Positions 8,289 through 63,561 of a DNA stretch of 64,000 nt are shown here, piece by piece. Position 1 is the first letter of the stretch; each line of letters opens with the position of its first letter. The DNA comes from Acetispira formosa (nom. nud.) (GTDB taxonomy: Bacteria; Desulfobacterota; Desulfarculia; Adiutricales; Adiutricaceae), in NCBI GenBank assembly GCA_023525915.1, contig CP026657.1, positions 310,001 to 374,000 on the forward strand, read 5' to 3'. A program made the translations under genes and the position numbers. A model generated the notes under the pieces. That model was not told where the DNA came from. It did no database searches and saw nothing but the letters and a program-made list of their open reading frames with translations.

Positions 8289-8378
8289 ACTGTCAGTTCG
8301 GATTGACACTGTCACACACTGTTGTCGCCTGTTCGCGGCTTATTGATGTGTGCCGGTCAGCACCAGTCTTTGACTGGC

Positions 8379-8547
8379 AGCGATTCTAATTATGGCTTTT
8401 CCCTAAACTTACGGCTCGTAGCTACACAAAAAGCGTGGTTTTTGTTTCGCGAGCAACTATTTTTTCGTCAAAACCAGTCGCTGGCGCTCCGTCTCGCTAC
8501 GCTCGACCCCGCTTTATGCGGCGGTGTCGGCCATAATTAGAATTGCT
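8379..8547 (+). repeat. Family 1 structured repeat, copy 1
   Basis: The ends are inverted (AGCGATTCTAATTATGGC and GCCATAATTAGAATTGCT). Inside are a CAAAAA-GCGTGG-TTTTTG hairpin, TTTCGCGAG, and the block CAAAACCAGTCGCTGGCG followed by CTCCGTCTCG. This is one of the best-preserved copies and defines the family. Confidence 0.85.
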
Positions 8548-8566
8548 GTTTGACCGGGTCGGCTGT

Positions 8567-17680: not shown

Positions 17681-17732
17681 TTCTGAACTTTCAGCCCGTA
17701 AGTCGGGCTAAAAGTTTGATATTTGCCCGACG

Positions 17733-17785
17733 AATGGCTGTATCAAAACCAGTCGCTGGCGCTCCGTCTCACCCTATTAGACCCT
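17733..17785 (+). repeat. Family 1 repeat, core fragment
   Basis: Only the conserved block ATCAAAACCAGTCGCTGGCG followed by CTCCGTCTCAC is present, without the terminal inverted repeats, just upstream of radC. Confidence 0.65.
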
Positions 17786-17805
17786 TGCGACAAGGATGAT
17801 ATATT

Positions 17806-33544: not shown

Positions 33545-33956
33545 ATCCGGCCGCTCCCGAAATGTTGAAAAACTGAAAAAAATATCTTACCTCTGAACCT
33601 TGTTTGAAACAGTCAGAGCCATAAAGACCATTTTCTATAATAACGGATTTGATCCCTAAACACAACTTTTGCGAATAGCCCCAGCAATTTGAAAAGTAAA
33701 CTTTTTCCCCCGAACTTGTGGCGTGCAGCTAAGCAAAAAGCGTGGTTTTTGCTTCGCGAGTTGCTGTTTTGCCGTCAAAACCAGTCGCTGACGCTCCGTC
33801 TCCCTTACAGGTCGACCTGCTATTTAAAAAACTGCCATCTACATTGAGGACTGCTGAATAGCCTCACAAGTAACAAATTCTTTGAACGCCGCTTCCCGGC
33901 CGTTACTCTACATTCAGACGGGCCGCCGCCTCGGCGTTGGCGGCGGGCCCTGCCCG
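33545..33956. other. Gene-free spacer, recJ / map
   Basis: These 412 bases contain a family 1 repeat (33682-33856) and a GC-rich hairpin (GGGCCGCCGCC/GGCGGCGGGCCC, near 33920-33950) close to the recJ stop that may end its transcript. Confidence 0.6.
33682..33856 (+). repeat. Family 1 structured repeat, subtype b
   Basis: The ends start CAGCAATTTG and finish GGACTGCTG. It holds GCAAAAA-GCGTGG-TTTTTGC, TTCGCGAG and CAAAACCAGTCGCTGACG. The hairpin stem is GC closed where copy 1 has another pair. It is closest to the copy at 46.6 kb. Confidence 0.8.
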
Positions 33957-36988: not shown

Positions 36989-37071
36989 GCCGCCGGGAGA
37001 AATGTTTTTGCCCGGCGAGGTTCCGGGGGTCTTTAGTCACCTCGCCGGGCAAAAACATTTTGCCCGGCGGC
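36989..37071 (+). repeat. Family 2 long hairpin, copy 3
   Basis: Nearly perfect arms of about 32 bp enclose the loop TTCCGGGGGTCTTTAGTCA. The stem top is GGCGAGG/CCTCGCC where copy 2 has GGCTCCGG/CCGGAGCC, so both strands of the stem changed together. Confidence 0.88.
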
Positions 37072-38664: not shown

Positions 38665-39719
38665 AATTTTGGCACAAAATTAGCCAGGACTCTTGGTAGA
38701 GCCTGAAAATATACCCTTCATTTAAGTAAGAAAAAGAATCCTTCGGATCACCCTTCCGGGGGCAGAGCACAAGGGCTTCAAAAGGGCCGCGCTCCAGAAG
38801 CGGTGATTCTAACTTTTTCCATAACCTGGGGGCGCAAAGCCAGACAAAAAATACTCTTTTTGCCCGGCGGGCAACCCGTTCAGCTTCAAGATCAGTCGCT
38901 GGCGTTCTGTCTGGCCGGCCGCTTGGCCAGCTGCTCCAATAACGCTATCAGCTAAAATTACCGCTCCAGACGTATCCGTAAAAATACCGAATCTGGAAAT
39001 CCTTCATCGGCTGGAATTAATAGCATTAATATACGGAGGCGTGAATTAGGAATACGCGATGTCCGGGTAGTTGTGACTTTATCGAATCAGCCTTCAAAGG
39101 TCAACGATCAATTTTTCCAAAGCTGAAGAAAGTGAATCTCCGCAAACTTCACAAAAAGCTCATCTTTTGCTAATAGGCTTATTTTATTTACTATTTTCAT
39201 TGAAAGAGACCCTTAATTATTGTTTCTTTAAGCCCTGTGAGGTTATGCGGAAGCTTGCTGAAACGGCCTGATTTTCAAAATTATAAACAATTGTGATTTT
39301 TATATCCAACAATTATACTATCCTTAATACTCCTGTATTCTCTGAAAAGCTCTTATTTTCATAAAAATCGGCCGCTTTATGCATAATTAAATTAAACAAA
39401 ATATAAGATTTAAGAAAAACCGGCAGTTAGGCGTCTCCCCATCTGGGCATTTTTCTCCGGTCTCGATAAAAAGCACGGACATATTAAAGTGTTATAGCTA
39501 TAAATGTATTGCCGTTGCTTACTTTGAACCACGAACGTTCCGAACACATTTAGCTTGTACAAAATCAGCCTGCCATAAAGGGATTGAGACGGTTCAGGTA
39601 TGATTTGAGGAGTTTTTAAAAATTAAGATAAAAATACCATATGCTAACTAATTATAACCAAGTTAACATTGCCTAAATTTTAGTCAAATTTTTAGACTTA
39701 GATTTAAATCAGAATAATA
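38665..39719. other. 1.05-kb gene-free stretch upstream of dnaA
   Basis: The part next to dnaA contains a family 1 repeat copy. From about 39030 to the ABC-F gene the DNA is strongly AT-rich. No coding frame was seen. No clear cluster of TTATCCACA boxes was found, so an origin is possible but not supported. Confidence 0.6.
38799..38965 (+). repeat. Family 1 structured repeat, divergent copy
   Basis: The ends are AGCGGTGATTCTAAC and TAAAATTACCGCT (inverted), with AAGATCAGTCGCTGGCG inside. The central hairpin has been replaced by other sequence. Confidence 0.65.
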
Positions 39720-41415: not shown

Positions 41416-41433
41416 GTCTGCCGGCAGGGCAGC

Positions 41434-41604
41434 AGCGATTCTAATTATGGCATTTTCCCTTGATCTGGCAGCTCGTAGCTACACAAAAAGCGTGGTTTTT
41501 GTTTCGCGAGCGGCTATTTTACCGTCAAAACCAGTCGCTGACGCTCCGTCTCGAAGACTCGACAGTCGTTATCGGCGGCGGCGAAAGCCATAATTAGAAT
41601 CGCC
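41434..41604 (+). repeat. Family 1 structured repeat, copy 2
   Basis: AGCGATTCTAATTATGGC and GCCATAATTAGAATCGCC form inverted ends; CAAAAA-GCGTGG-TTTTTG and CAAAACCAGTCGCTGACG lie inside. It starts only 19 bases upstream of the ABC-F -35 box. Confidence 0.85.
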
Positions 41605-41646
41605 GGCAGGGCAGACGCTTGGAGACGGCAAAGATTAAATCCGCCG

Positions 41647-41737
41647 GAATCCGGGGATTGATTTTTGTCCCGGCCCTGTTCCAAGGGTCTTAGTCACGGA
41701 ACCGGGCGAAATATTTCTCCCGGCGGTCGCCCGCTAT
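41647..41737 (+). repeat. Family 2 hairpin, degraded copy
   Basis: The loop region CCAAGGGTCTTAGTCACGG is recognisable, but the left arm resembles copy 1 (GGGGATTGATTTTTGTCCC) and the right arm resembles copy 2 (AAATATTTCTCCCGG), so pairing is partly lost. Confidence 0.7.
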
Positions 41738-46630: not shown

Positions 46631-46803
46631 CAGCAATTCTCAAAGTAAACTTTTTCCCTTGAACCAGGGCTCAGCAACTACGCAAAAAACGTGGTTTTTG
46701 CTTCGCGAGAGACTATTTTACCGTCAAAACCAGTCGCTGACGCTCCATCTCCCTTACTGGTCGACCTGCTATTTTAAAATCGCCATCTACTTTGAGGATT
46801 ACT
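46631..46803 (+). repeat. Family 1 structured repeat, subtype b
   Basis: It starts CAGCAATTCTCAAAG and ends near TTGAGGATTACTGG, with CAAAAAACGTGGTTTTTG, TTCGCGAG and CAAAACCAGTCGCTGACG inside. Its right end overlaps the last codons and stop of rnhA. Confidence 0.8.
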
Positions 46804-47230
46804 GGTATTTTTTGTTCAGATTGGCATGTTTGGCCGCTCTGGAGGCCAGGGCGTCCGCCTCGCTGTTGAACTCCCGACGCACATGGGCGATGTCATACTC
46901 GCTGAATTTGGCCAGAAGATCTTTGGCCTCCTGAAACAATACGGCCAGCCGGGCATTCTTGACCTTGTAAATACCCAAAATCTGCCGCACAATCAGCTCG
47001 GAATCCATCCTGATGCGCAATTTCTCCGCACCCAGCTCCAGGGCTTTCTTCAACCCCTCCAGAAGGCCCTGATATTCGGCCTCATTATTGGTGACCCGGT
47101 CCCCCAGGTAAAGAGAAACCTCAGCCTGAACATCGCCGGAGGGATCATAAATAATCGCCCCCGCACCGCCGTGGCCGGGATTGCCCAGAGAAGCGCCGTC
47201 GGCGTGGAGCAACCAGAAATCGTCGTTCAT
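46799..47230 (-). CDS. rnhA: RNase HI family protein
   Basis: The enzyme cuts the RNA strand of RNA:DNA hybrids. The 143-residue protein shows the acidic catalytic residues in HADGASLGNPG (Asp), TNNEAEYQGLLEGLKKA (Glu) and LRIRMDSELIVRQI (Asp), and HVRREFNSEADALASRAAK near the end. It resembles the short RnhA/YpdQ-like branch. The ATG at 47230 has AAGGAC before it; the longer upstream frame crosses repeat DNA. The stop codon lies within a family 1 repeat. Confidence 0.92.
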   Translation of the reverse strand: MNDDFWLLHADGASLGNPGHGGAGAIIYDPSGDVQAEVSLYLGDRVTNNEAEYQGLLEGLKKALELGAEKLRIRMDSELIVRQILGIYKVKNARLAVLFQEAKDLLAKFSEYDIAHVRREFNSEADALASRAAKHANLNKKYQ

Positions 47231-47300: not shown

Positions 47301-47528
47301 AACGCGCCCGTAATGAGGCGCGTCAGTTTGATGACAAAATCATTCCGTCGTGGCATTCGATGGTGCAGCATCGTGAAAAGCGTGGTTTTCACGATGCGAG
47401 TAGCGGCTAACCTCTTAAAATCAGTCGCTGTCACTCCGTCGCCTACGGCGACCATTTCAAACCTCAGCGTTTGTTTTTCCCAGCCAAGGATTTGTCAGCA
47501 ATCTGACGCGCTTGTAAGCGGGCGCGTT
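47301..47528 (+). repeat. Family 1 structured repeat, subtype c
   Basis: Outer inverted ends (AACGCGCCCG...GCGCGTCAG and CTGACGCGC...GGGCGCGTT) enclose GCATCGTGAAAA-GCGTGG-TTTTCACGATGC, GAGTAGCGG and AATCAGTCGCTGTCACTCCG, then GTCGCCTACGGCGAC. It pairs with the copy at 60.9 kb. Confidence 0.8.
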
Positions 47529-47623
47529 CCAGCATTCAATTTTTCAGTCCGGCTTTAACAATCTTCGCAAATAACAGCCCACAGGCCGATTGGGGTATGC
47601 AAAGTTCAGCCCTCTGTAAAAGC

Positions 47624-48538
47624 TCAACCCGTGCGGCGGCGCGGTTTTTTAGTGCCGCTGATCGGCCCCATCATCTGAAGCCAGGTCGGGGCCATTAAGG
47701 GCAGGGTTATCTTGATTTTTTCCAGGATTTTTTCCTTGTCGTCCTTATTCATCTTCGGCATGATATCCAGATAAGTGGGAGAATCGGCCGGCTGGGTTTC
47801 ATGTTCCAGACCGAAATCAGTCATGGAAACGAGCTGTATAGCCAGATTGACGACTTCCACGGTGGATTTGCTGCCGGTGGCAATATCAGGGCGATGATGA
47901 TAAAGAATAACATCCTGAAGATATTTGGGCATGCCCCAGTTTTTGGCCAGGAGATAGCCAATGGCCTCATGCCAGAGGCCCAGATCGGCTTCCGCCTCCA
48001 GAAAACTGCGTTTTTCATTAACATAATTCATCAGCCGCTGAAGCTGAACGGTGAAGTGGGTCACCAGCATGATCTGGCCGAGATTGTGCAAAAGACCCGC
48101 CAGCATGGCTTCGCCCGGATCGACCAGACGGGTGGCCGCGGCCACTTCACGCGCCGTCCAGGAAACGGAAAGGCTGTGCAGCCACAATCCTTCGCCGTCA
48201 AAGCCGTGGGGCACCTTGCGGAGATCGAAGGTGTCGGCCAGGCCCAGACCAAGAGCCAGAAACTCCAGCTCCTTGAAGCCGATAATGACGATAGCTCTGG
48301 AAATAGTGGTGGCCGGAGTGCGGAGGCCGTAGTAGGCCGAGTTGCCAAGACTGATGACCTTGGCGGAAAGAGCAGGATCCTGCTCCACCACTTTCTGCAG
48401 ATCATCGGGAGTGGTGTTCTCATCGCCCAGAAGACGCATGAGTTCCCAGGTCACCTGCGGCAGAGTGGACAGCCGCCCGATCTCCTTGATGCGGGAGGAG
48501 ACTTGCGGGTCTATTATCGATTCGATATTAGCTGTCAT
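47624..48538 (-). CDS. HDOD-domain signalling protein
   Basis: This 304-residue protein is mainly an HDOD domain (residues about 20-220) with LSTLPQVTWELMRLLGD, VEQDPALSAKVISLGNSAYYG and AIVIIGFKELEFLALGLGL. A cryptic HD-like region includes LLHNLGQIMLVTHF. HDOD proteins relay signals in chemotaxis, motility and stress control without a known enzymatic activity. No receiver or GGDEF domain is attached. The gene is monocistronic. Confidence 0.92.
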   Translation of the reverse strand: MTANIESIIDPQVSSRIKEIGRLSTLPQVTWELMRLLGDENTTPDDLQKVVEQDPALSAKVISLGNSAYYGLRTPATTISRAIVIIGFKELEFLALGLGLADTFDLRKVPHGFDGEGLWLHSLSVSWTAREVAAATRLVDPGEAMLAGLLHNLGQIMLVTHFTVQLQRLMNYVNEKRSFLEAEADLGLWHEAIGYLLAKNWGMPKYLQDVILYHHRPDIATGSKSTVEVVNLAIQLVSMTDFGLEHETQPADSPTYLDIMPKMNKDDKEKILEKIKITLPLMAPTWLQMMGPISGTKKPRRRTG

Positions 48539-48765
48539 ACTGAATTCAACCTCATGCTGAAACTAAAGCAGTGTCCGCCAGGACAATGCACCGCCGTGGC
48601 CGCATATAGAAAGCGCGGCCGGGAACCTTCCCTATGCCGCCGGACTCCCGCAATTGAGTCAGATCAAACCATTGTATAATTTGCGGCTGAAACTCCCCGT
48701 GGAATATACTTTCATAAATATATCATAAAATGCGGCTGATTACAAAGAATTTGGGACAAAAACAC

Positions 48766-49278
48766 TCACTCTGACAACCCGGTTTTGTCCCTATTTTTAG
48801 CGGCTTTTACTTTTTCTCTTTTTTCTTTGAAAAATGAGCTAATTAGCCGGGCACATTCTTCAGCCAGCAAACCGCCTGTTACTATAATATTGTGATTGAG
48901 GCCCGAAACAGAGGGCAGATCCATCAGCGATCCGGCCGCCCCCCACTTCGGTTCAGCCGCCCCGAAGACCACCCGGGCCACTCTGGCGTGTATAGCCGCC
49001 ATCAGACACATGGGGCATGGCTCCAGGGTGCTGTAGAGCACTGAACCGGTGAGGCGGTAGTTGCCCGCCGCTTCGGCGGCGGCCCTAAGGGCCGACATTT
49101 CCGCATGGGCCGTCGGGTCATTGAAAGTTATGACCCGGTTATGCCCCCGGCCGATAATCCGGCCGTCCTTTGCCGCCAGTACGGCCCCGGCCGGAACTTC
49201 TTCTATATCGCGGGCGGCTTCCGCCTCAGCCAGGGCCTCTCGCATGAAAGCCTCATCTTGTGCGGTAAAAAGAGTCAC
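48766..49278 (-). CDS. tadA: tRNA-specific adenosine deaminase
   Basis: TadA deaminates the wobble adenosine of tRNA-Arg(ACG) to inosine. The 170-residue protein has the zinc/catalytic motifs NDPTAHAEMSALRAA near residue 57 and STLEPCPMCLMAAIHARVARVVFGA near 85. A lysine-rich tail of about 20 residues is extra. It overlaps holA by four bases and ends the three-gene unit. Confidence 0.95.
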   Translation of the reverse strand: MTLFTAQDEAFMREALAEAEAARDIEEVPAGAVLAAKDGRIIGRGHNRVITFNDPTAHAEMSALRAAAEAAGNYRLTGSVLYSTLEPCPMCLMAAIHARVARVVFGAAEPKWGAAGSLMDLPSVSGLNHNIIVTGGLLAEECARLISSFFKEKREKVKAAKNRDKTGLSE

Positions 49279-50285
49279 CGGCGTTTCACCGACAGCAGGG
49301 TGCCCAGCTTCAAGGCCAGATTCTCCATTAAAAACTGGGGCGGCGTGGCGCTGGTGACCAAAGTGCGATGAGCTTCTTCCACTGCTTCCAGGGCTTCAGC
49401 CACAGCTTTCCACGGCCACCTTTCCGCCTGCCCCTGAGTTTTTTCCAGCACAAAGGGATGAAGCCCCAGCCCTTGGGCCTGATCGGCCGACAGGCGGCTG
49501 GTCCCGTGGAGCGTCTGAAGAGTCTTGACCTGAAGAATCAGCCTGAAATGCCGCACCATCATGGCCAGCACCGGCAAATGATGCTCAGTGGCCAGAAGCT
49601 CCAGCAAGGTGGCCAGGCCGCTTTTCAGATCCTGCCGCCCCAGGGCCTCCCCCAATTCAAAAACATTGGCGTTGGGTGACAGACTCACCATCTCCTTGAC
49701 CAGATCGGGGGTCAGGCGGCCGCCCTCCCCCAGATACAGACTGAGCTTTTCGGCCTCACCCAGGAGGGTGGGCAGATCATTGCCCGCCCGTTCAATAATC
49801 ATGCTCGCGGCCAGGCCGCTGACAGTAACACCCCGCCGGGAAAACTCGGTGGTCAGCCATTTTACCAAAGCCGCGCCCTTGGGCGGGCGGCAGTCGACCT
49901 CGGCCCCGCCGGCTTTGATTTTCTTGAAAAACTTCAACCGGCTGTCCGGTTTGTCTACTATCAGAACAATGGTTGATTCGTTATTTGGATTATCCAGATA
50001 ATCCAGCAAAGCGTTCCAGTCATCCGCGGAAAAAGGCGGATTCTTCAGAACCAGCATTCTGGGTGAGACGAAAAAGGGCATAGTGGAAGCTTCGCCAACC
50101 AACCGGGAAGCCTGGCCGCTATCCAAATCAAGCACCTGATAGTTAAAATCGCGGAAACCCGGATCAACCGCCGCTTCAGCGGCCGCCAGACAGCGGCTTT
50201 GAGCCGAAGGCTCGCCGCCGCTGATCAGATAAAACGGACGCCGGGACGCTCCCGCGATTTCGCTGATGAAGTCCTCCGGCGTCAT
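49275..50285 (-). CDS. holA: DNA polymerase III delta subunit
   Basis: HolA is the clamp-loader subunit that opens the beta ring. The 336-residue protein fits the family in length, with FYLISGGEPSAQSRCLAAAE at the N-terminus, AKLIVLKNPPF-like sequence (RMLVLKNPPFSADDWNALLDYL) near residue 80, and the helical C-terminal collar domain. It overlaps both the upstream kinase gene and the downstream tadA gene by four bases each. Confidence 0.92.
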   Translation of the reverse strand: MTPEDFISEIAGASRRPFYLISGGEPSAQSRCLAAAEAAVDPGFRDFNYQVLDLDSGQASRLVGEASTMPFFVSPRMLVLKNPPFSADDWNALLDYLDNPNNESTIVLIVDKPDSRLKFFKKIKAGGAEVDCRPPKGAALVKWLTTEFSRRGVTVSGLAASMIIERAGNDLPTLLGEAEKLSLYLGEGGRLTPDLVKEMVSLSPNANVFELGEALGRQDLKSGLATLLELLATEHHLPVLAMMVRHFRLILQVKTLQTLHGTSRLSADQAQGLGLHPFVLEKTQGQAERWPWKAVAEALEAVEEAHRTLVTSATPPQFLMENLALKLGTLLSVKRR

Positions 50286-51244
50286 TTAATGAGATTAACC
50301 TGCTCATTGAACGCTGAAGCGTGACGGCCCATAACTTCCATCAAGGTAAAGGTATGGCTTTGGGTGCTTTCACCCTCGACCCGGAAAGCGGCCACCGTGG
50401 CCCCCAGGCGGCAGGCCGTTATCAGGTGTTCGCCCATAGCCAGACCCTTCAGCAGACCGGCCCGGAAAGCGTCACCGGCCCCGGTCGGATCACTGCCGAG
50501 CACGCGGACGGGCACGGCCATGATGTGCTGTGAGCCGCGCCCGTGAACCAGCAGGTCACTGCCGGCCGCACCCTTGGTCATAACTATGACTTCAGTGCGG
50601 CTGAATATTTCATCCAGCGACAACTCGGTGGATTGTTGGAACATGTTCAGTTCATATTCATTGCAGATAAGCATGTGAGCTTCTTCCAGGGCCTCCAGAA
50701 GCCCCTCTTTCCCCAGGGCGGGAATCTGCTGGCCTGGATCAAAAATGAATTTCAGGCCGAGACGGCGGCAATCGGCGGCCAGGCTCCGCATTTCATCGGC
50801 CCCGGCGGGCGAGATAATGACCAGATGATCTTGACCGGGGGCCAGGGTCCCCAGATCGAAACCGCTGGGGAGGTTCATAGCTCCGGGGTGAAAAAAGGTG
50901 AACTGGCTGTTGTTCTCATCAGAGGCGATGACGCAGCCGGCGGTCATCTGACCTGAATGCAGCTTAACTCCATCCAGCGGCAAGCCCCAGCCCTTGATGC
51001 GGTCGGCATAGTCCTGACCATCTGGATCATCGCCGAGACTGCCGATAATATAGGGTTTTTCGCCAAGAAGCTGGAGGTTATAACCGATATTTCCGGCTGT
51101 GCCGCCATAGACGCGCTTAACCTTATCCACCAGAAGCGACAGGCTGACTTGATCGAGTTTATCAGCGATGAGGTGGTCAGAGAAACGGCCGGGATAGGAC
51201 ATCAGGCGGTCAAAAGCCAGTGAACCGAAGCATGCTATGCTCAT
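50282..51244 (-). CDS. PfkB-family carbohydrate/nucleoside kinase
   Basis: This 320-residue ribokinase-fold enzyme has GGTAGNIGYNLQLLGEKPYIIGSLGDD near residue 50 (PfkB signature 1) and LGSDPTGAGDAFRAGLLKGLAMG near residue 250 (signature 2, with the catalytic aspartate in GAGD). Adenosine-kinase-like and ribokinase-like members are possible; the substrate cannot be read from sequence. The ATG at 51244 has AAGGAT eight bases upstream; the longer frame enters repeat DNA. It heads the unit with holA and tadA. Confidence 0.9.
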   Translation of the reverse strand: MSIACFGSLAFDRLMSYPGRFSDHLIADKLDQVSLSLLVDKVKRVYGGTAGNIGYNLQLLGEKPYIIGSLGDDPDGQDYADRIKGWGLPLDGVKLHSGQMTAGCVIASDENNSQFTFFHPGAMNLPSGFDLGTLAPGQDHLVIISPAGADEMRSLAADCRRLGLKFIFDPGQQIPALGKEGLLEALEEAHMLICNEYELNMFQQSTELSLDEIFSRTEVIVMTKGAAGSDLLVHGRGSQHIMAVPVRVLGSDPTGAGDAFRAGLLKGLAMGEHLITACRLGATVAAFRVEGESTQSHTFTLMEVMGRHASAFNEQVNLIK

Positions 51245-51290
51245 TGTATATATCCTTATAGAGTTTGATGACCGATGACTATACACCGGT

Positions 51291-51385
51291 GCCGGGCAGG
51301 GCCCGGACCCCATGTCTGGGAATCCCTTTCCCGTAATAGTTAATAATGGCGGCTATCATCGTATTAAGAGTGTGGCCCCCATGGT
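51291..51385 (+). repeat. Family 3 intergenic repeat, copy 4
   Basis: It contains CCCCATGTCTGGG, CCCGTAATAGTTAATAATGG and CTATCATCGTATTAAGAG followed by TGTGGCCCCC, the fullest form of the family. Confidence 0.75.
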
Positions 51386-51469
51386 TATTGCGTTGCACCG
51401 GGCAGTAAAGTCAGTTGCTTTTTAATGCCCGGTTCTGAAGCGGCGGCGGTTCACCTCTGAACTGACGAC

Positions 51470-53464
51470 TCAAATGTCTATGCGGCTCTTCTTTTCGTCG
51501 GGGCGGTGGCGCTTTTTGGCTACCAGGGCCGCACGAATGTTCGTTATGGATTTGTGCATCAGAGGGGTATCCGGACACTGGAAAACCAGGTTTTCCGGCC
51601 GTGCGTTGCCCTCCCGTAAGAGTGACTGGGCAATTTTCAGATACTGGTCGGCACTGGAAGGCAAGCCGGTTACGTCCACATAAAAGTGGCGCATTTCGCC
51701 CCAGCCGGTCCTCAGAATATAGTCGGCGGAAAGGAGCTTTGCTTCTTCATGGGGGGCCTCAAAGTTCAGCACCACCAGCACCTTGCTTTGGCCGCCCGCC
51801 GACCATAGATCATTTGTGTCTTCATGGACGAGCTCCAGGGGCGGAAAGTCGCGCTTGAAGCAATCCATAATTTTTAGGAAATGCTCATCAGTCAGCCCGT
51901 CCGGGGCGTTGGAGAGGCCTACGGTCACGATCGTTTCCGGCCGGAGCACCTGGTTGTGCACCAGCCAGGCCCCCAGCCTGATAGCCCGCCCGGCGGCATA
52001 GACCAGATTGTCGTCACTGGGGGTCATGGCTGAATCATCAAGGGCGTGGAGGTTCCAGAGAGCGCTGTCGGGATCATATATAATGACCAGCCGGGAGGCA
52101 ATGCTCAGGCGGTGCATCTGCGAAGGGAGGGTCTCAATAGTGGAATCAAGGCCGCCGCGCCGGGCCAGGAGCCGGGCGGCCAGGGGGGCCAGTTCCTCGT
52201 CCTGGGGGTTGACCTGCCCTGGGTAATTGCTGATGAGATAGTGGGAAATGCGCACATAGACGCTGGAAAGCATATTCAACAGCTCACCGCCAAGATAGAG
52301 GCGTTCTCTTTCCGGCCAGCGGCTGTAATTGGTCAATCTCATGATGCGGTCTTCGTCCCAGCCCCAGCGCGTGGCCCGTTCTTCCAGGATCAGCCTTTTG
52401 GGGGAATTCTTGGGAATGACGAAAACCTGGCCGCTGCCGGTGCTGCCCAGAACCTTCAGGGCCGCCGCTGTTCGCAAAAGATCAAGCTGCTCCGGGGTCA
52501 GGCTCCTGGCCCCGTATTCTGTGATTCTATCAATGGCCAGCACATAGGGATCGACCGGCAGCTCGGCCGGGATAGCCTTTAATATGGCGGACTTGATGTC
52601 ATTACAGAGCAGCGGCATCTGAAAATCTGATTCCACATATTCCAGAATGGAAATAATTTTCATAATGCCTTTGAAAGGGTCGGCCTCGGATTTTCTGGCC
52701 AGCCAGAGGGCGGCGGCCAGGAATTCCTGCGGCGCGGGCAGGGCCGGAAAGCCCAGATCAACGAACTGGGCCGACTCGCCGGAGGTCAGAAGATCGCTCA
52801 GGGCCTGATATTTCTCCCGGCTTATGCCGGTAGGCAGGAGCTGCCATACGGCCGGACGCCCGGCCACATGGAGAATGGTGCGATAGAGCTCTTCCAGCAA
52901 CAGAAGCGGGGCCACTTCGCCTTCAGTTTCCGCCTCATCAAGCCGGGTTATTCGTCCCGCGGCCAGTTCCTTTAGGTTAATAATGTAGAAGTTGGCTTCC
53001 GTGCCGTGCTCACGCCTGGCCCAATCGGATATTGCGGCCAGCTTTTGCTGGAACAATTCCAGGGGGCGTCCGTTAAGGCGCTCAGGTTCATAGCAGACCC
53101 AGTAATCAAGGTCAGATGAAGCTGTATGCCCCACCGAGCCGGAGGAGCCAATCAGCAGAAGGCTTTCCACAGCCGGGTTATCCACCGGCCGGGTTAGGGG
53201 GCTGTCGTGCCGGTGCTCCTCTGAAAGCCACGACTGGCGTTCGATGAACCGCACCCCGTAGGGGGTGGCCGGATCATTAATATAGCCGGGCTGCTCCGGG
53301 CTGTTGACGTTCAGAAGGAGGGGGGCCTGGTCAAAGACAAAAGCAAAGCCCTCCATGGCGTAGCGTCTGAGCTCACGGATTCTGGCTTCATTGTTGGCCT
53401 CTTGCGCCACAAGGTTTGTATGTATGGCGTCGAGCGACACATCATCTGGTAATTTATCTTTCAT
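51470..53464 (-). CDS. cyaA: Class I adenylate cyclase
   Basis: The enzyme makes cyclic AMP. The 664-residue protein matches the enterobacterial-type class I catalytic domain: LLLIGSSGSVGHTASSDLDYWVCYE near residue 105 (nucleotidyltransferase GS...DLD motif), FYIINLKELAAG, LLLLEELYRTILHVAGRPAVW near 190, and FPALPAPQEFLAAALWLARKSEADPFKGIMKI. It is about 180 residues shorter than E. coli CyaA, mainly in the C-terminal regulatory part. No Crp or PTS gene lies nearby. Confidence 0.92.
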   Translation of the reverse strand: MKDKLPDDVSLDAIHTNLVAQEANNEARIRELRRYAMEGFAFVFDQAPLLLNVNSPEQPGYINDPATPYGVRFIERQSWLSEEHRHDSPLTRPVDNPAVESLLLIGSSGSVGHTASSDLDYWVCYEPERLNGRPLELFQQKLAAISDWARREHGTEANFYIINLKELAAGRITRLDEAETEGEVAPLLLLEELYRTILHVAGRPAVWQLLPTGISREKYQALSDLLTSGESAQFVDLGFPALPAPQEFLAAALWLARKSEADPFKGIMKIISILEYVESDFQMPLLCNDIKSAILKAIPAELPVDPYVLAIDRITEYGARSLTPEQLDLLRTAAALKVLGSTGSGQVFVIPKNSPKRLILEERATRWGWDEDRIMRLTNYSRWPERERLYLGGELLNMLSSVYVRISHYLISNYPGQVNPQDEELAPLAARLLARRGGLDSTIETLPSQMHRLSIASRLVIIYDPDSALWNLHALDDSAMTPSDDNLVYAAGRAIRLGAWLVHNQVLRPETIVTVGLSNAPDGLTDEHFLKIMDCFKRDFPPLELVHEDTNDLWSAGGQSKVLVVLNFEAPHEEAKLLSADYILRTGWGEMRHFYVDVTGLPSSADQYLKIAQSLLREGNARPENLVFQCPDTPLMHKSITNIRAALVAKKRHRPDEKKSRIDI

Positions 53465-53520
53465 ACAGTCGATATGCTACGCAAAAAAAAACTTTAAGTC
53501 AAGTGCGTGGCCCGCACGGC

Positions 53521-53692
53521 AGCAATTCTAATTATGACCCATGCCGCCTCACAATAGCTGGTGTCGAGTCTTCGAGACGGAGCGCCAGCGACTGGTTTTG
53601 ACGGCAAAATAGCAACTCGCGAAACAAAAACCACGCTTTTTGTGTAGCTACGAGCCGCGAGCTTAAGGGAAAAAGCCATAATTAGAATCGCT
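53521..53692 (-). repeat. Family 1 structured repeat, copy 3
   Basis: A well-preserved copy in reverse orientation, with ends AGCGATTCTAATTATGGC and ATAATTAGAATTGCT when read on the minus strand, and CAAAAA-GCGTGG-TTTTTG plus CAAAACCAGTCGCTGGCG inside. It directly abuts a family 3 copy. Confidence 0.85.
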
Positions 53693-53775
53693 GCCCGCAC
53701 GGGGCTATGTCTGGGGGGGGCCCCGGGCGAAGGGTTCGGCGGCTGTCATCGTATTAAGAGTGTGGCCCCCTTGGC
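53693..53775 (+). repeat. Family 3 intergenic repeat, copy 5
   Basis: GCCCGCACGGGGCTATGTCTGG leads into GGCGGCTGTCATCGTATT, AAGAGTGTGGCCCCC. It is contiguous with the family 1 copy before it. Confidence 0.7.
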
Positions 53776-54040
53776 TGGGTTCGTTGCGTTTTTCGCGATT
53801 TCGACCCCTTTTTTATCTCAAAATGATAGGTTTATCATTTCAAGATATTTTTTGAAGCGCCACCGGGGGGCTTTAGGGGAGTAACTTATTGAAAAGACAA
53901 CAAATAAAAAAATAAAGCAAACTGGCGGATTTAGCCCAGGACTTGCTATAAAGAGAAACAGGATTTTGAAACAGCCGTCTGAAATATAATATACAAGGCG
54001 GTTTACAAAAAACGGCGTTGCCGAAATAAGGAGCCAGACC

Positions 54041-55261
54041 ATGAGCGATTTTCAGTATTACATCAATCCCGCCCCCAAAGTTCCCGGTGAGGGTGCGGAT
54101 GTTTCCGTCCTCAATAATGAAGTGGCCAAAAAAGTCGGCGATTTTCACCGGAGTTTCAAAGAATACAGTGTAACCCCGCTGACGGAACTGAAAGCTCTGG
54201 CCGCCGATTTCGGCCTGGGCCGCGTTTGGGTGAAGGATGAATCTTATCGTTTCGGCCTCAATGCTTTCAAGGTGCTGGGCGGGGCTTACGCCATTGGACA
54301 GTATCTGGCCCAGAAGCTGGGCTGCGACATCAGCGAATTAAGCCGCGAAAAACTGGCCTCCCCTGAGATCAAAGCCAAAATCGGCCAGATAACCTTCGCC
54401 TCCACCACCGACGGCAATCACGGCCGCGGCGTGGCCTGGACCGCCCAGCAGTTGGGCCAGAAGGCTGTCATCTATATGCCCAAGGGCTCGGCCCAGATCA
54501 GGGTGGACAACATCCTGGCCACCGGCGCGGAATGCTATGTCACCGACATGAACTATGACGACACCGTGCGCATGACCGACATGAAAGCCAAGGAAAACGG
54601 CTGGGTCATAGTTCAGGATACGGCCTGGGAAGGTTATACGGAAATCCCCACCTGGATTATGCAGGGCTACATGACCCTGGCCGTGGAAGCCCTGGAGCAG
54701 ATCAAGGCTTTGGGTGAGAACCGCCCCACCCACCTGTTCCTTCAGGCCGGGGTCGGCTCTTTCGCCGGTGCGGCCCTGGGTTTCATGGCCGCCGCCCTGG
54801 GTAAAGACATGCCGATAACCACCATCGTCGAGCCGGACAAGGCGGCCTGCATCTATAAATCCGCCACGGCCAAAGACGGCAAAGCCCATCCGGTGACCGG
54901 CGATATGGACACCATCATGGCCGGCCTGGCCTGCGGCGAGCCCAGCATCATCAGTTGGGGCATGCTGCGGGACTATGCGGCGGCCTATATTTCCATGTCT
55001 GATTTCTACGCGGCCAACGGCATGCGCGTTCTGGCCGCCCCTCTCAAGGGCGACGCGCCCATCGTCTCGGGTGAATCGGGCGCGGCCACCATGGGCGCCC
55101 TCCAGCACATCATGCGGAACCCCAATGCCGATGAGCTGAAAAAGGCCCTGAAGCTGGACGCCAATTCCAAGGTTCTCATCATCAGCACCGAAGGCGACAC
55201 CGCCCCTGAAATTTACCGCGACATCGTCTGGTTCGGTAAATACGCTGACGGCTGCAAATAA
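54041..55261 (+). CDS. dpaL: Diaminopropionate ammonia-lyase
   Basis: DpaL (YgeX) converts 2,3-diaminopropionate to pyruvate and two ammonia, using PLP. The 406-residue protein shows the PLP-lysine segment SYRFGLNAFKVLGGAYAI near residue 75, TDGNHGRGVAWTAQQLGQKAVIYMP near 125, and FLQAGVGSFAGAALGF near 235 for phosphate binding. GGAG precedes the ATG. It is followed by a xanthine-dehydrogenase-type gene, similar to the E. coli purine-linked ygeX region, so it may act in nitrogen-compound catabolism. Confidence 0.95.
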   Translation: MSDFQYYINPAPKVPGEGADVSVLNNEVAKKVGDFHRSFKEYSVTPLTELKALAADFGLGRVWVKDESYRFGLNAFKVLGGAYAIGQYLAQKLGCDISELSREKLASPEIKAKIGQITFASTTDGNHGRGVAWTAQQLGQKAVIYMPKGSAQIRVDNILATGAECYVTDMNYDDTVRMTDMKAKENGWVIVQDTAWEGYTEIPTWIMQGYMTLAVEALEQIKALGENRPTHLFLQAGVGSFAGAALGFMAAALGKDMPITTIVEPDKAACIYKSATAKDGKAHPVTGDMDTIMAGLACGEPSIISWGMLRDYAAAYISMSDFYAANGMRVLAAPLKGDAPIVSGESGAATMGALQHIMRNPNADELKKALKLDANSKVLIISTEGDTAPEIYRDIVWFGKYADGCK

Positions 55262-55280
55262 TCCGCCGTCACCTGCCCGG

Positions 55281-55446
55281 ACGATTATAATTATGGCTTT
55301 TTCCCAAACTTGCGGCTGGCAGCTGCACAAAAAGCGTGGTTTTTGTTTCGCGAGCGGCTATTTTACCGTCAAAACCAGTCGCTGGCGCTCCGTCTCACTG
55401 CGCTCGACCCCGGTTAATGTGGGGCATCGGCCATAATTAGAATTTC
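55281..55446 (+). repeat. Family 1 structured repeat, copy 4
   Basis: Ends ACGATTATAATTATGGC and GCCATAATTAGAATT; GCAGCTGC replaces the GTAGCTAC of copy 1 ahead of CAAAAA-GCGTGG-TTTTTG, and CAAAACCAGTCGCTGGCG follows. Confidence 0.85.
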
Positions 55447-55507
55447 AAGCCCGAAAAGTCCGGGCAGGCTTTATGCATAAATGAGGTGTATAATTCCCAT
55501 ATAGGCC

Positions 55508-55609
55508 AGGGGGCAACGCTCTTAATACGATGACAGCCGCCCAAACCCGCCCCCAGGGAAAAAGCCACCCAGACATAGTCCCGTGCGGACCACGCACACG
55601 CACACGCGC
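55508..55609 (-). repeat. Family 3 intergenic repeat, reversed copy
   Basis: On the minus strand it reads GTGCGTGGTCCGCACGGG, CTATGTCTGGGTGG, then GGCTGTCATCGTATTAAGAG and CGTTGCCCCC, matching the 9.0 and 53.7 kb copies. Confidence 0.7.
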
Positions 55610-55621
55610 AAGGAGGCTTGC

Positions 55622-58201
55622 ATGCCGGTTTTTACTCTTAACGGACAAGAGGTCGTCACGCCCGGCGGTCTGAATTTACTGGAATACCTGCGGGAGGAAG
55701 CTCGCCTGACCTCAGTTAAAAACGGCTGTGCCGAAGGGGCCTGCGGAGCCTGTATGGTGGTGGTGGACGGCAAGGCCACCCGGGCCTGCCTCCTGAAAAC
55801 GGACAAGCTTGAGGGCAAAAACGTCATTACCGTTGAGGGCCTGCCGGAACGAGAAAAGAAAATTTTCGCCCATGCCTTTGGGTCCGTCGGGGCCGTTCAG
55901 TGCGGGTTCTGCATTCCCGGCATGGTTATGAGCGCCAAGGCCCTGTTGGATAAAAATTCCAGCCCCAGCGCGGCTGAAATTAAGGACGCCCTGAAATTCA
56001 ACATCTGCCGCTGCACCGGCTATGTCAAAATAGAAAAGGCCATTGCCCTGGCCGCCGAGTTCTGGCGCGAACCGGAGAAGGAACTGCCGGACGACCACCA
56101 TCTGGCCGGAGTTCTGGGCGATCCCATTCACCGGGTCGACGCCGCCGCCAAGACTCTGGGGCTGGGCCTGTATACCGACGATCTGAAGCCGGAAGGGCTT
56201 CTTTACGGACGGGCGCTGCGCCCGGCGGCGGCCAGGATACTGGTCAAATCCATTGACGTCAGTGAAGCCCTGAAGGTGCCGGGAGTTATGACCATCATGC
56301 TGGCGGAGGATATTCCCGGCTCACGCTTTTTGGGGCATTTGCCTCACACCCATGACTGGCCGGCCCTGATAGCCGCTGGTGAGGAGACCCGCTATATCGG
56401 CGACGCCCTGGCCCTGGTGGCCGCCGTCAGTTGGGAGGCGGTCGACGAAGCGCTGAAGAAAATAGTGGTCGATTATGATGAACTGCCGCCCATGACTTCC
56501 CCGGAAATGGCCATGGCCGAAGGTGCGCCCAAAATTCACCCCAAAGGCAACATACTTCAGGTGGAAAAGCTGTATCGCGGCACACCTGAAGAGTCTATTG
56601 CCAAATCCAAATATGTGGTCACCAACACTTATGACCTGCCCTTCACCGAACACGCCTTTCTGGAGCCGGAATGCGCAATAGGCATGCCCGACGGCGACGG
56701 GGTGATGCTCTTTACCGGCGGCCAGAGCATTTATGACGAACAGAGGGAATGCGCGCTGGTTCTGGGCCTCCCCCCGGAGAAGGTGCGGGTCCGCAGTATG
56801 CTGGTGGGCGGCGGCTTCGGCGGCAAAGAGGATATGAGCGTTCAGCACCACGCCGCCCTGCTGGCCTGGAAAACCCAGGCCCCGGTGAAGGTGCGCCTCA
56901 GCCGCCAGGAGAGCATTAACGTCCACCCCAAGCGCCATGCCATGAAGGTGGAAATGACCACGGCCTGTGATGAGAACGGTCTGCTGACAGCTATGCGCTG
57001 CCGTATACTTTCCGATACCGGGGCCTATGCTTCCTTGGGCGGCCCGGTTCTTCAAAGGGCCTGCACCCACGCGGCCGGTCCTTATAATTACCAAAATGTC
57101 GACATCATCGGCACGGCCGTCTATACCAACAATCCCCCGGCCGGAGCTTTCAGGGGTTTTGGCGTCACCCAGACCGTGCACGCCACGGAATGCAATCTCA
57201 ATCAACTGGCCAAAATGGCGGGCATATCCGATTGGGAGATCCGCTTCCGCAACGCCCTCAAACCGGGCGACGTCATGCCCAACGGCCAGATTGCCGATGA
57301 AAGCACCGCGCTGCTCGAAACTTTAATGTCGGTCAAGGAAGAATACGAAAAAGCACCGCTGGCCGGTATCGGCTGCGCCCTGAAAAATTCCGGCGTCGGT
57401 GTGGGCCTCCCGGATACGGGGCGCTGCCGTCTGGTGGTTTCCGGCGGCAAGGTGCATATCTACACCAGCGCGGCCTGCATCGGGCAGGGCATGGCCACGG
57501 TCAACACCCAGATGGTGGCCACTTTCGCCGGCATTGATCACGGTTTCATTGTGGCCGAGCCCCCGGATACGGCCAACAGCCCGGATTCCGGCACCACCAC
57601 GGCTTCCCGGCAGACGGTCTTCACTGGCGAAGCGACCAGGAGAGCGGCGCTCAAGCTGAAAGAGGCCATGAAAAACAAGAGCCTTACCGAACTTGACGGT
57701 CATCAGTTCAATGCCGAATATCTGGGGGAAACCGATCCCATGGGTTCACCCAAGGCCAATCCGGTCAGTCATGTGGCCTATGGCTACGCCACCCATCTGG
57801 TGCTGATGGACCCGGACAGCGGATTAATTGAAAAAATCATCGCCGTTCACGATGTCGGCCGGGTGGTCAATCCCCAGGCCCTGGAGGGTCAGATTGAAGG
57901 CGGTGTGGTGACCAGTCTGGGTTATGGCCTGACGGAAGACTTCCCTTTGAAGGACGGCATACCCCAGGCCCGGTTTGGTACCCTGGGACTGTTCAAGGCC
58001 GCCGCCGTCCCGCCTATTGAACCGCGGTACCTGGGCCGGGAGGCCTGTGATTTGGCTGGCGGAGCCAAGGGCGTGGGCGAAATTGCGGCCATTCCCACCT
58101 CACCGGCCATTCAGGGAGCCTATTATAAAAGAGACGGCATATTCAGGACGAAACTGCCAATGGAAGACACGCCCTACAGCCGCAGGAAGAAAACCTCCTG
58201 A
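55622..58201 (+). CDS. Xanthine-dehydrogenase-type molybdenum hydroxylase (2Fe-2S plus Mo domains)
   Basis: This 859-residue single-chain enzyme hydroxylates a purine or aldehyde. Residues about 1-75 are a plant-type ferredoxin domain (NGCAEGACGACMVVVDG), about 80-150 the second cluster domain (VQCGFCIPGM, NICRCTGYVKI), then the molybdenum domain with VGGGFGGKEDMSVQHHAALLAW, GAFRGFGVTQ and a C-terminal GGAKGVGEIAAIPTSPAI. No FAD domain is present. The architecture and the dpaL neighbour fit a selenium-dependent xanthine dehydrogenase type, but the subtype is an inference. AGGAGG lies seven bases before the ATG. Confidence 0.9.
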   Translation: MPVFTLNGQEVVTPGGLNLLEYLREEARLTSVKNGCAEGACGACMVVVDGKATRACLLKTDKLEGKNVITVEGLPEREKKIFAHAFGSVGAVQCGFCIPGMVMSAKALLDKNSSPSAAEIKDALKFNICRCTGYVKIEKAIALAAEFWREPEKELPDDHHLAGVLGDPIHRVDAAAKTLGLGLYTDDLKPEGLLYGRALRPAAARILVKSIDVSEALKVPGVMTIMLAEDIPGSRFLGHLPHTHDWPALIAAGEETRYIGDALALVAAVSWEAVDEALKKIVVDYDELPPMTSPEMAMAEGAPKIHPKGNILQVEKLYRGTPEESIAKSKYVVTNTYDLPFTEHAFLEPECAIGMPDGDGVMLFTGGQSIYDEQRECALVLGLPPEKVRVRSMLVGGGFGGKEDMSVQHHAALLAWKTQAPVKVRLSRQESINVHPKRHAMKVEMTTACDENGLLTAMRCRILSDTGAYASLGGPVLQRACTHAAGPYNYQNVDIIGTAVYTNNPPAGAFRGFGVTQTVHATECNLNQLAKMAGISDWEIRFRNALKPGDVMPNGQIADESTALLETLMSVKEEYEKAPLAGIGCALKNSGVGVGLPDTGRCRLVVSGGKVHIYTSAACIGQGMATVNTQMVATFAGIDHGFIVAEPPDTANSPDSGTTTASRQTVFTGEATRRAALKLKEAMKNKSLTELDGHQFNAEYLGETDPMGSPKANPVSHVAYGYATHLVLMDPDSGLIEKIIAVHDVGRVVNPQALEGQIEGGVVTSLGYGLTEDFPLKDGIPQARFGTLGLFKAAAVPPIEPRYLGREACDLAGGAKGVGEIAAIPTSPAIQGAYYKRDGIFRTKLPMEDTPYSRRKKTS

Positions 58202-58204
58202 CAA

Positions 58205-58241
58205 TTCAAAAGGCCCCGGCAATATGCCGGGGCCTTTTGAA
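58205..58241. terminator. Bidirectional terminator
   Basis: The stem TTCAAAAGGCCCCGGC and its complement enclose a five-base loop between the convergent hydroxylase and EutH-like genes. Confidence 0.9.
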
Positions 58242-58266
58242 TTTGAACGAAAAAATCAGCCGACGA

Positions 58267-59472
58267 TCAATTCTCGCCAGCGGTTTCCCTTTCCAACTGC
58301 TGGGCTTTGGGGACTGACAGCCACATAGCGAACATGAAGCCAAAGGCGCAGCCGACCATTTTGCCGCACAGGATGGTCGGAATCATGGATGGCTGGAAAT
58401 TGGCGATAAAAGCCAGATGGTCGCCGAACATGAAAGCTCCGCACACGGCAAAGGAGATACACAGAACCTTGTCTTTGGCCGGCATGTCGCCAATCAGGCG
58501 ATACATGGCCAGAATATTGGCCGCCCCGGCCAGAAGACCGGCCGCCCCGGTGGAATCCATGCCAAAAATCTGGCCGAACTTTTCCATGGGTTTGGCCAGA
58601 TACTTTTTGATCAGATAAACCATCGGGAAAGCCCCGGCCAGCATGATTCCGATGTAACCGGCAACTTCAAGGGCCCGGAACTGATCCTCTTCATCGGCGA
58701 TGATCGGATCAAAGCCCCAGGAACCGAACAGCGTTGAAAACCAGCCGGTGAAATACTCGACGATTGAAAAGGCCAGAACCAGAACGATACAGATATGCAT
58801 CAGCCTGGCCAGAAGCAGAAAGCCTTTAATCATAAAGTCCGGCACCATTTTCAAGCCCACCACCAGAGCCAGGCAGAAGACCGTCAGCGGAGCCAGGTTG
58901 ATTAAGATCATGCCCAGGTTAAGGTTCAGGTGCAGAGTCGGATCGCCGGCGGCGGCGATAACGTCCCGTACGGCCGGGTCGGTCAGCATCAGGAAGACAG
59001 AACCGGCCAGAACACCGAGAGGAATGCTCAGGAGGCCGGACATGACCCCAAGGGCCATATATTTATGGTCTTTTTTGGCCAGCATAGAGAGGCCCACCGG
59101 AATTGAAAAAACAATCGTCGGGCCGGCCATGGAGCCGACCACCAGAGCCATCAGCCAGCCCTCTCTGCTTTGCGAAAGGGCTTCGGCTAACTGATAACCG
59201 CCCATATCCATGGCGATGATCGTTGTTCCGGCAATGGCCGGGTCCGCGCCGATTGAGGCGAAAAGCGGCCCCACCACAGCGGTTATGGCCTTGGAAAGAT
59301 AGGGCACCGAAGCCATTATGCCGGCAACGGGCACAAAAATAGGGCCGATGCTGTGGAGGCCCTCCATGAATTCTTTGCCAATTCCATCCTGATCATTCCT
59401 TAACGCGGCGAACGCCCCAATAATCAGACAGGCCATAATCAAATAAACGACATAAGTTCCTACAGCGGCCAT
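58267..59472 (-). CDS. eutH: EutH-like ethanolamine/amine permease
   Basis: This 401-residue membrane protein has about 10-11 hydrophobic segments and the EutH pattern: DMGGYQLAEALS near residue 92, GSMAGPTIVFSIPVGLSML near 115, MALGVMSGLLSIPLGVLAGS, and FAVCGAFMFGDHLAFIANF near 350. EutH imports ethanolamine, but no other eut gene is present, so the substrate here is open and may relate to the dpaL/hydroxylase island across the terminator. The start is ATG at 59472, with AGGAGAGA upstream. Confidence 0.9.
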   Translation of the reverse strand: MAAVGTYVVYLIMACLIIGAFAALRNDQDGIGKEFMEGLHSIGPIFVPVAGIMASVPYLSKAITAVVGPLFASIGADPAIAGTTIIAMDMGGYQLAEALSQSREGWLMALVVGSMAGPTIVFSIPVGLSMLAKKDHKYMALGVMSGLLSIPLGVLAGSVFLMLTDPAVRDVIAAAGDPTLHLNLNLGMILINLAPLTVFCLALVVGLKMVPDFMIKGFLLLARLMHICIVLVLAFSIVEYFTGWFSTLFGSWGFDPIIADEEDQFRALEVAGYIGIMLAGAFPMVYLIKKYLAKPMEKFGQIFGMDSTGAAGLLAGAANILAMYRLIGDMPAKDKVLCISFAVCGAFMFGDHLAFIANFQPSMIPTILCGKMVGCAFGFMFAMWLSVPKAQQLERETAGEN

Positions 59473-60005
59473 AACCTTTTCTCTCCTTCAATTATGTAAA
59501 ACAGTATAACAACACCACCTCTCATGGCTGAGAGGGTGGCCCCAGTGAAACGCGCCATATAATCAGGTTTGACCGGCCGGATCCATATCTTTAAGGATAC
59601 GCCAAAGCCGTCAACGCCGGAGACGCTGTAATGTTAAATGTTGTTCAAATTGCCAGGATTATTAATCAGTTTGGCGGCATGTTTCGCAATGGTCTTGCCA
59701 AACTTCAGACTAATTATTTTATTATACATTTATTTAACAAATTATAATATCAATTTTTTGTATTAGCCCGCCGATGGTTCTCATTTCCACTTTTCACCCC
59801 CAAAACAGCCATACTCAATATGCCGTAATTCAAGCTGCGCTTGACAATTGGCCTATTCCCATTATAGACTATTATGAAAGGTCCGCATCAATCCCCGTTC
59901 CCACCGCGTTCTTAAATCCCAGCACCAGTGAACAATTGAAATATCCAGGTAAAATATCGGGTTTGCGGACAAGTCAAAGAAGCAGTATACAAGCTGGAGA
60001 CGAAA
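59473..60005. other. Gene-free divergent spacer, eutH / phosphatase-like
   Basis: These 533 bases are AT-rich (especially 59690-59760). A promoter-like pair lies at 59841-59868. The longest open frame here (from 59774) overlaps the next gene and looks non-coding. Confidence 0.55.
59841..59868 (+). promoter_or_regulatory. Possible promoter of the phosphatase-like gene
   Basis: TTGACA at 59841-59846 and TATAGA at 59863-59868 are separated by 16 bases, about 140 bases before the start codon. Confidence 0.45.
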
Positions 60006-60809
60006 ATGAGATATTTTATTTGGGCCGTCATGGCCCTAATGATGACCTGTTTCTCCGCCGCGGGCACAACTGGCTGGGCGCAAGAAGCCGCGGGCACAGC
60101 GGTTCAGGCTCCGGGTGACGGCCAGGTACTTATTTATTTCGTGCGCAGCGGACGGACTTTTTTCCAGGTCCACGGACGGGTGCAGGGCGTTTCCAATTCC
60201 CCTCTGACTGAAGAGGCGGTCACCCAGGCTAAAACGCTTGGCAAGGGCATGAAAGATATTGCCTTTACCACAGCTTTTTCCAGCGACCTCGGCCGTCACC
60301 GCCGAACGGCCAGATACATCCTGGCTGAAAACGCCAACCCAAAGCCGGAACTGGTGGAATTTCGCGGCCTGCGTGATTGGAATTACGGAGGATTTGAGGG
60401 CTCGCTCTTAATCCAGATGCTGACGCCTATCTATAAAAAGCATAATCTCGAATACGACAGTACCCGCACGACCTATGACAAACTAATCGGCGCCATAGGC
60501 TATAAAGGCATAGCCGACGCCATAGCCGCCGCCGATCCCCTGGGGGTGGCTGAAAACTATGACCGCATCATCGCCAGAAGCAAAGAAGCCATGGACAAAG
60601 TTATAGTCGACACCCTGGCCAAGGGCGGCGGAAACACTCTGGTGGTCTCATCCGGCAATGAGCTGCCCACAATTCTGACCATGCTGGCCCCTGATCAGTT
60701 TCATGGCGAAAACATCAGTGATGGCTCCGTATCCATTGTCAAATACAAGAACGGCAAATACCGGCTGGAAATAGTCGGGGATGAAAGTTATCTGAATAAA
60801 GGCAAATGA
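60006..60809 (+). CDS. Exported histidine-phosphatase-fold protein lacking both catalytic histidines
   Basis: The 267-residue protein begins with a signal peptide (about residues 1-25, ending TTGWAQ), so it is periplasmic or exported. The rest follows the histidine phosphatase (PGAM-like) fold: FVRSGRTFFQVHGRVQGVSNSPLTEEA, TAFSSDLGRHRRTARYIL, LRDWNYGGFEG, and TLVVSSGNELPTIL near the end. The RHG catalytic motif is RSG (codons CGC AGC GGA) and the second SHG motif is SSG (TCA TCC GGC: V-S-S-G), so both catalytic histidines are serine. It is probably a pseudoenzyme with a binding role. It is followed by paired terminators and an autotransporter. Confidence 0.85.
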   Translation: MRYFIWAVMALMMTCFSAAGTTGWAQEAAGTAVQAPGDGQVLIYFVRSGRTFFQVHGRVQGVSNSPLTEEAVTQAKTLGKGMKDIAFTTAFSSDLGRHRRTARYILAENANPKPELVEFRGLRDWNYGGFEGSLLIQMLTPIYKKHNLEYDSTRTTYDKLIGAIGYKGIADAIAAADPLGVAENYDRIIARSKEAMDKVIVDTLAKGGGNTLVVSSGNELPTILTMLAPDQFHGENISDGSVSIVKYKNGKYRLEIVGDESYLNKGK

Positions 60810-60839
60810 ACTGACGGCCGGCCTCCCGGCCGTCAGTTC
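60808..60839 (+). terminator. Terminator of the phosphatase-like gene
   Basis: The stem GAACTGACGGCCGG/CCGGCCGTCAGTTC overlaps the stop codon region. A nearly identical hairpin is repeated at 61017. Confidence 0.8.
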
Positions 60840-60861
60840 ATTTGCTGCCCCAGCCAAGTGA

Positions 60862-61012
60862 AATCATTTGATCTGGCGGGGAAAGGTCGTCGTAGGCGAC
60901 GGAGCGGCAGCGACTGATATTAATGGTTTAACCGCTACTCGCAACGTGAAAACCACGATTTTCACGTTGCTGAATCATTAAATGGCTATGACGGAATGAC
61001 TTTGTCATTAAA
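60862..61012 (-). repeat. Family 1 structured repeat, subtype c
   Basis: Read on the minus strand it contains AATGACAAAGTCATTCCGTC, GCAACGTGAAAA-TCGTGG-TTTTCACGTTGC, GAGTAGCGG and ATCAGTCGCTGCCGCTCCG, then GTCGCCTACGACGAC. It is the partner of the copy at 47.3 kb and sits between two copies of the same terminator. Confidence 0.8.
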
Positions 61013-61016
61013 TCTG

Positions 61017-61049
61017 ACTGACGGCCGGCCTCCCGGCCGTCAGTTTTTT
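61017..61049 (+). terminator. Second copy of the same terminator
   Basis: ACTGACGGCCGG/CCGGCCGTCAGT is followed by TTTTTTC. It has the same core as the hairpin at 60808, here with a full T-run. Confidence 0.85.
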
Positions 61050-63376: not shown

Positions 63377-63487
63377 CAGGGCGGAGCCCTGGACCCACGG
63401 ATGCTTGCGCATCCTTCGTCTAGGTGACTCCTTCCCGTAATAGTTAATTACGGCGGCCATCATCGTATTAAGAGCGGTGCCCCCTCA
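63377..63487 (+). repeat. Family 3 intergenic repeat, copy 7
   Basis: CCCGTAATAGTTAATTACGG is followed by GGCCATCATCGTATTAAGAG and CGGTGCCCCC; a GGATGCTTGCGCATCC hairpin precedes it. Confidence 0.75.
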
Positions 63488-63561
63488 ACTCTGGCCTCTG
63501 TATTATCGCTTGAGGCGATTTCTATTCCTTGAATAATTCCTTTTATTTCAATGTTTTCGCG

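Follow-up and report, generated by a model that had tools for sequence, protein, structure and literature searches.

Compensatory change in a hairpin of MITE-like elements from Acetispira formosa, and matching terminator-like hairpins on both sides of one type of element

REP elements are repeated hairpins that are moved by RAYT proteins. The repeats analyzed here are likewise repeated hairpins in a genome with Y1 transposase genes; however, they possess inverted ends and target duplications and show no linkage to RAYT-like genes. Bacterial MITEs such as ERIC, RUP, BOX, QMITE and Chunjie (PMC10969869) are short and non-coding, carry inverted ends and target duplications, and occur in hundreds of intergenic copies for which folded transcripts have been proposed. 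Our elements share these features and fit the MITE definition given in that review. In contrast to those MITEs, one core is common to two end types, covariation was tested and found, and Rfam has no match. The pneumococcal SPRITE, BOX and RUP (PMC3049150) are also structured interspersed repeats, and SPRITE resembles a terminator, whereas here the terminator-like hairpin is the insertion site of one element type (type c) and not the element. Finally, the insertion of IS1272, a member of the IS1182 family, is directed by a stem-loop and replaces it, and the authors' model permits duplication as well (PMC5678879). As with IS1272, stem-loops of unrelated sequence are the target of type c. However, the stem-loop is replaced without duplication by IS1272, whereas the hairpin is kept twice in type c.

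We analyzed 64 kb of the A. formosa genome (hereafter, the window; G000:C1:310001-374000), and the coordinates below are those of the window unless another locus is named. The core CAGTCGCTGNCGCTCCGTC matches the window ten times, against an expectation of 0.02. In the whole genome, 386 matches with at most two mismatches were found, and the reversed pattern gave none. Systematic sampling of about 1.7 Mb yielded 158 core copies; the base-by-base reading covered about a third of the genome, and the copies are mutually related. The exact core pattern was not found in 97 relatives. When covariance model R1 was used instead of the exact pattern, the full element was detected at least 57 and at least 60 times in two species of the same genus (G003 and G004, respectively) and once in G006, and no element was found in three other genomes searched. 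In G003 and G004, the anatomy of the element is the same and the letters of the stem are different. The Rfam search matched no family to the element. Ten scattered single matches of the exact core in genome records of other organisms were at chance level and were discarded. With hundreds of copies in one genome and relatives in sister species, the family offers an unusually large natural sample for asking whether it is as folded molecules that mobile intergenic repeats are maintained.

The anatomy of the copies shows that the repeats are non-autonomous mobile elements of the MITE-like kind: they are about 167-185 nt long, are present in many copies without a transposase gene, and have terminal inverted repeats in all three types (a, b and c). 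Most type-a and type-b elements measure 167-180 nt. They end in the terminal inverted repeats CAGCRATTCTAATTATGGC and CAGCAATTCTCAAAGTA, and target duplications of 9 bp were detected at 35 distinct a/b sites. In the window, type-a elements lie at 8378..8548 (+; 9-bp target duplication with one mismatch), 41433..41605 (+; 9-bp duplication GCAGGGCAG), 53520..53693 (-; 9-bp duplication CCGTGCGGG) and 55279..55448 (+; worn ends, target duplication not found). Type-b elements lie at 33682..33856 (+; an 8-bp near-match at the two flanks) and 46631..46804 (+; 9-bp duplication GTATTTTTT). Diverged core copies are present at 17683..17795 (+) and, near dnaA, at 38821..38940 (+). The possibility that types a and b target hairpins was considered and rejected: the reconstructed sites fold better than shuffles, but their folding does not exceed that of random stretches of the genome (p 0.22). 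At four other loci of this genome (L101, L108, L124 and L109), the core forms head-to-tail arrays with periods near 132, 133, 114 and 58 nt, respectively; the element therefore expands in tandem too. A composite tandem was observed at L008 (positions 1817 and 2134), where the right half of the element is repeated behind copies of another sequence.

Type c is rarer than a and b. It has the core in common with them and different ends (CAGTTTGATGACAAAGTC), and it measures 182-183 nt in those copies that have two clear ends (12 copies examined). In nine of the 12 copies, the same hairpin abuts both ends (alignment scores 12-31; best random scores 9-12), and all 12 have at least one abutting hairpin. 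The sequence of the flanking hairpin is peculiar to each site, and T runs follow several of them, as with intrinsic terminators. At L070, the two flanking hairpins differ by two compensated adjacent pairs and one loop base. The window contains two type-c copies. Copy 1 (182 nt; 47324..47505, +; ends CAGTTTGATGAC..GTCAGCAATCTG) is abutted on the left by the hairpin ACGCGCCCGTAATGAGGCGCGT (47302..47323, +) and on the right by a diverged second copy of it, ACGCGCTTGTAAGCGGGCGCGT (47506..47527, +), whose score of 12 against a null maximum of 11 is the weakest of the nine. Copy 2 (about 179 nt; 60838..61016, -) has the terminator-like hairpin ACTGACGGCCGGGAGGCCGGCCGTCAGT at one end (61017..61044, -), followed by a T run on the + strand, and an identical hairpin at the other end (60810..60837, -), directly behind the stop of a phosphatase-like ORF (60006-60809). 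Type c presents a probable target duplication as large as a whole terminator-like hairpin, which the published model allowed and IS1272 itself did not show.

The preliminary description of the window had taken a paired change between the two type-c repeats, at 47.3 and 60.9 kb, as direct evidence that base pairing is conserved. The stem of hairpin 1 reads GCATCGTGAAAA-GCGTGG-TTTTCACGATGC in copy 1 (47368..47397, +) and GCAACGTGAAAA-TCGTGG-TTTTCACGTTGC in copy 2 (60970-60941, -). The swap from T-A to A-T is real: the pair T47371-A47394 corresponds to A60967-T60944. In alignment A1, it occupies columns 26/50, where type c has T-A, the 60.9 kb copy has A-T, and A-T or G-C is found elsewhere. However, it is a single event in one of the 12 type-c copies. 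Within this set, two stem changes are compensated (L050 and L057) and three are uncompensated (two in L057 and one in L053). Because of this ratio, the comparison of the two type-c repeats alone is weak evidence and is not decisive; it does not directly show that selection maintains their pairing.

Two further examples in that description did not hold up. The next hairpin, said to keep its pairing (AATGAC/GTCATT versus GATGA/TCATT), instead carries two separate one-sided changes. This small hairpin near the left end reads GATGACAAAGTCATT in most type-c copies; in the 47.3 kb copy, G became A in the right arm (C.A, with the loss of one pair), and in the 60.9 kb copy, the left arm carries A in place of G, which turns G.T into A-T. 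As for the copies at 8.4 and 55.3 kb, the change from GTAGCTAC to GCAGCTGC had been read as compensatory, but the two positions are not fold partners, as a hairpin of these halves would have no loop. The partner of the A in the covarying fold is a T further downstream, and A to G is thus a one-sided change from A-T to G.T. The two letters do correlate over the copies (complementary in 58 of 114, where 42 were expected, with the C/A combination in 26 copies), and shared ancestry can explain this correlation.

The larger alignment, in contrast to the two type-c repeats, bears out conserved pairing for hairpin 1 across the family. Among 64 distinct copies, changes on both sides were observed in eight of the 13 pairs and in 72 cells, against 19.1 in shuffles. 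Cells were paired in 86.9%, against 43-48% when the stem was slid. The top covariation scores in the element include hairpin-1 pairs, one pair of the third hairpin and one pair inside the loop. The last is a closing pair, C-G or T-A in GCGTGG/GTGTGA/ATGTGA, which leaves a three-base loop with a bulge. Parsimony on a tree built from non-stem columns assigned the both-side changes to numerous branches, with a maximum of 15 for a single pair; this tree is rough, and copies may have undergone gene conversion. For the second hairpin (AGCGGCT/AGTCGCT), covariation stayed within the range of shuffles, and the general claim of conserved pairing does not extend to it. Together with the different stem letters in G003 and G004, these results show that hairpin 1 keeps its pairing through compensatory changes, both inside one species and from one species to another.

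Covariation by itself does not identify the folded molecule as RNA. The mismatches that remain in hairpin 1 bear on the question of which strand folds. Read on the strand of the preliminary description, distinct hairpins contain 22 A.C and 10 G.T mismatches (p about 0.05), and the same count on the tree gave 26 and 12 (p about 0.03). A folded strand tolerates G.T and not A.C, and the A.C excess therefore points to folding of the complement. Furthermore, where a copy lies between two ORFs of the same direction, the sense strand is the complement in 43 cases and the other strand in 21 (p 0.008, with crude ORF calls). The two signals are small and independent, the copies are related, and the p values are uncorrected for multiple looks. 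GC skew was weak in the comparison of orientation with the replication strand. Thus, the folded strand is probably the complement of the one first described.

Overall, we favor, with somewhat better than even confidence, an explanation in which MITE-like elements are moved in trans, type c at terminator hairpins, and hairpin 1 is kept as a folded transcript. The transposases would be encoded elsewhere. Type c would enter at the foot of a terminator hairpin, and the whole hairpin would therefore be duplicated. The complement strand might be transcribed in read-through mRNA and fold hairpin 1, whose A/T-rich stem and CAC-type loop might form a recognition or processing site; this would allow copies to be retained in intergenic transcripts. 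Points against this explanation include the two conserved pyrimidine mismatches in the stem of most a/b copies and the absence of a matching Rfam family. A function of the hairpin at the RNA level is our leading reading of the sequences. It is unproven, because folded single-stranded DNA would give the same mismatch asymmetry.

The main competing explanation is that the hairpin is kept as DNA, namely as a cruciform or a folded single strand recognized by a transposase or a host protein during movement or replication. HUH transposases read hairpins, and the bulged small loop of hairpin 1 resembles these hairpins; in addition, the elements move, hairpins at the target clearly interact with type c, and the genome holds IS200-like and two RAYT-like Y1 transposase genes. 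However, both RAYT-like genes are free of copies for about 6 kb around, the inverted ends and target duplications indicate DDE transposases rather than HUH enzymes, and a strand-neutral cruciform predicts no excess of A.C over G.T. We consider maintenance as DNA unlikely, while leaving it a sizable chance.

Two other explanations invoke no selection on the fold. Template switching could copy one arm of a quasi-palindrome onto the other, so that both sides change at once. The flanking hairpins at L070, which differ at two adjacent pairs that are all compensated, would fit such a mutational process, as would the type-c swap, which affects both arms of a near-perfect palindrome. Nevertheless, most a/b copies retain two conserved pyrimidine mismatches in the hairpin-1 stem, which correction should have removed; the second hairpin is without covariation; and the A.C and G.T intermediates are unequal in number. 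This process is improbable as the source of the pattern. Alternatively, the covariation might reflect a few founder variants that were much copied, without constraint. The copies are indeed related, and some of the changes (pairs 24-41 and 25-40) fall on single large clades. Since the tree built without the stem has 8 to 15 branches with both-side changes for each of the pairs 21-44, 23-42, 31-35 and 93-103, and further variants occur in two other species, we regard a founder effect as very improbable.

For the movement in trans that we prefer, a source of transposase was searched for. Neither the sampled third of the genome nor the surroundings of the Y1 and DDE_Tnp_1 genes revealed an autonomous element with such ends, and none of the DDE_Tnp_1 genes bears the ends of the element. 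The IS1182-type Pfam models PF05598 and PF13751 (DUF772 and DDE_Tnp_1_6) had no match in the genome. Membership of the IS1182 family is not claimed, because no IS1182-type transposase was found; a stem-loop target is seen for type c only. The search with the type-c end returned short copies and one solo end only; by eye, no partner end or transposase was recognized in the sequence near this solo end (578.9 kb, L086). An origin from a RAYT/REP system was rejected, as the neighborhood (about 6 kb) of the two RAYT-like genes (L074 and L075) contained no core copies.

A related loop was detected in more distant genomes. The pattern AAAA-YCACRC-TTTT is complementary to the hairpin core. It was counted 289 times in the A. 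formosa genome, 39 times in G044, 14 times in G045 and 45 times in G196, and the reversed pattern gave zero. In those copies of G044, G045 and G196 that were read, the loop was found in multi-hairpin repeats of unrelated sequence. Those of G044 (L236-L242) and G196 (L228-L235) are bounded by their own inverted ends. That one loop recurs in repeats otherwise unrelated to each other suggests a shared binding partner. The AAAA-YCACRC-TTTT hairpin, with any compensated stem, could be a transferable module, acquired by unrelated mobile repeats of the phylum because a host RNA- or DNA-binding protein recognizes it, an idea that we put forward as a long shot. Against Rfam, the G044 repeats gave only weak RsmW-like matches below the Rfam threshold. 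The G044 repeats also bear hairpins of the sequences GCGCGTAAGCGC and GCCATGGATGGC, and GCCATGGATGGC resembles CsrA-type loops. Single copies of AAAAYCACRCTTTT elsewhere were dismissed as relatives; several are Walker A coding sequence and so reflect chance.

Other repeats were observed in the window and at L107. A second hairpin repeat, of the GCCCGGCTCCGGTGACTAAAGACCCCCGGAACCGGAGCCGGGC type, is located at 24347-24586, 37005-37055 and 41663-41713, and at L107:2200-2620, where it occupies the expected place of the element's hairpin 1. A dispersed repeat, GGCGGCCATCATCGTATTAAGAGCG, is found at 93-146, 9071-9113, 51348-51384, 53738-53774, 55503-55558 and 63452-63488, and some of its copies directly adjoin type-a elements. 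Finally, 13981-14779 forms a large inverted repeat with 116-nt arms that are 97% complementary and 567 nt apart, with a second pair, of 198 nt, inside.
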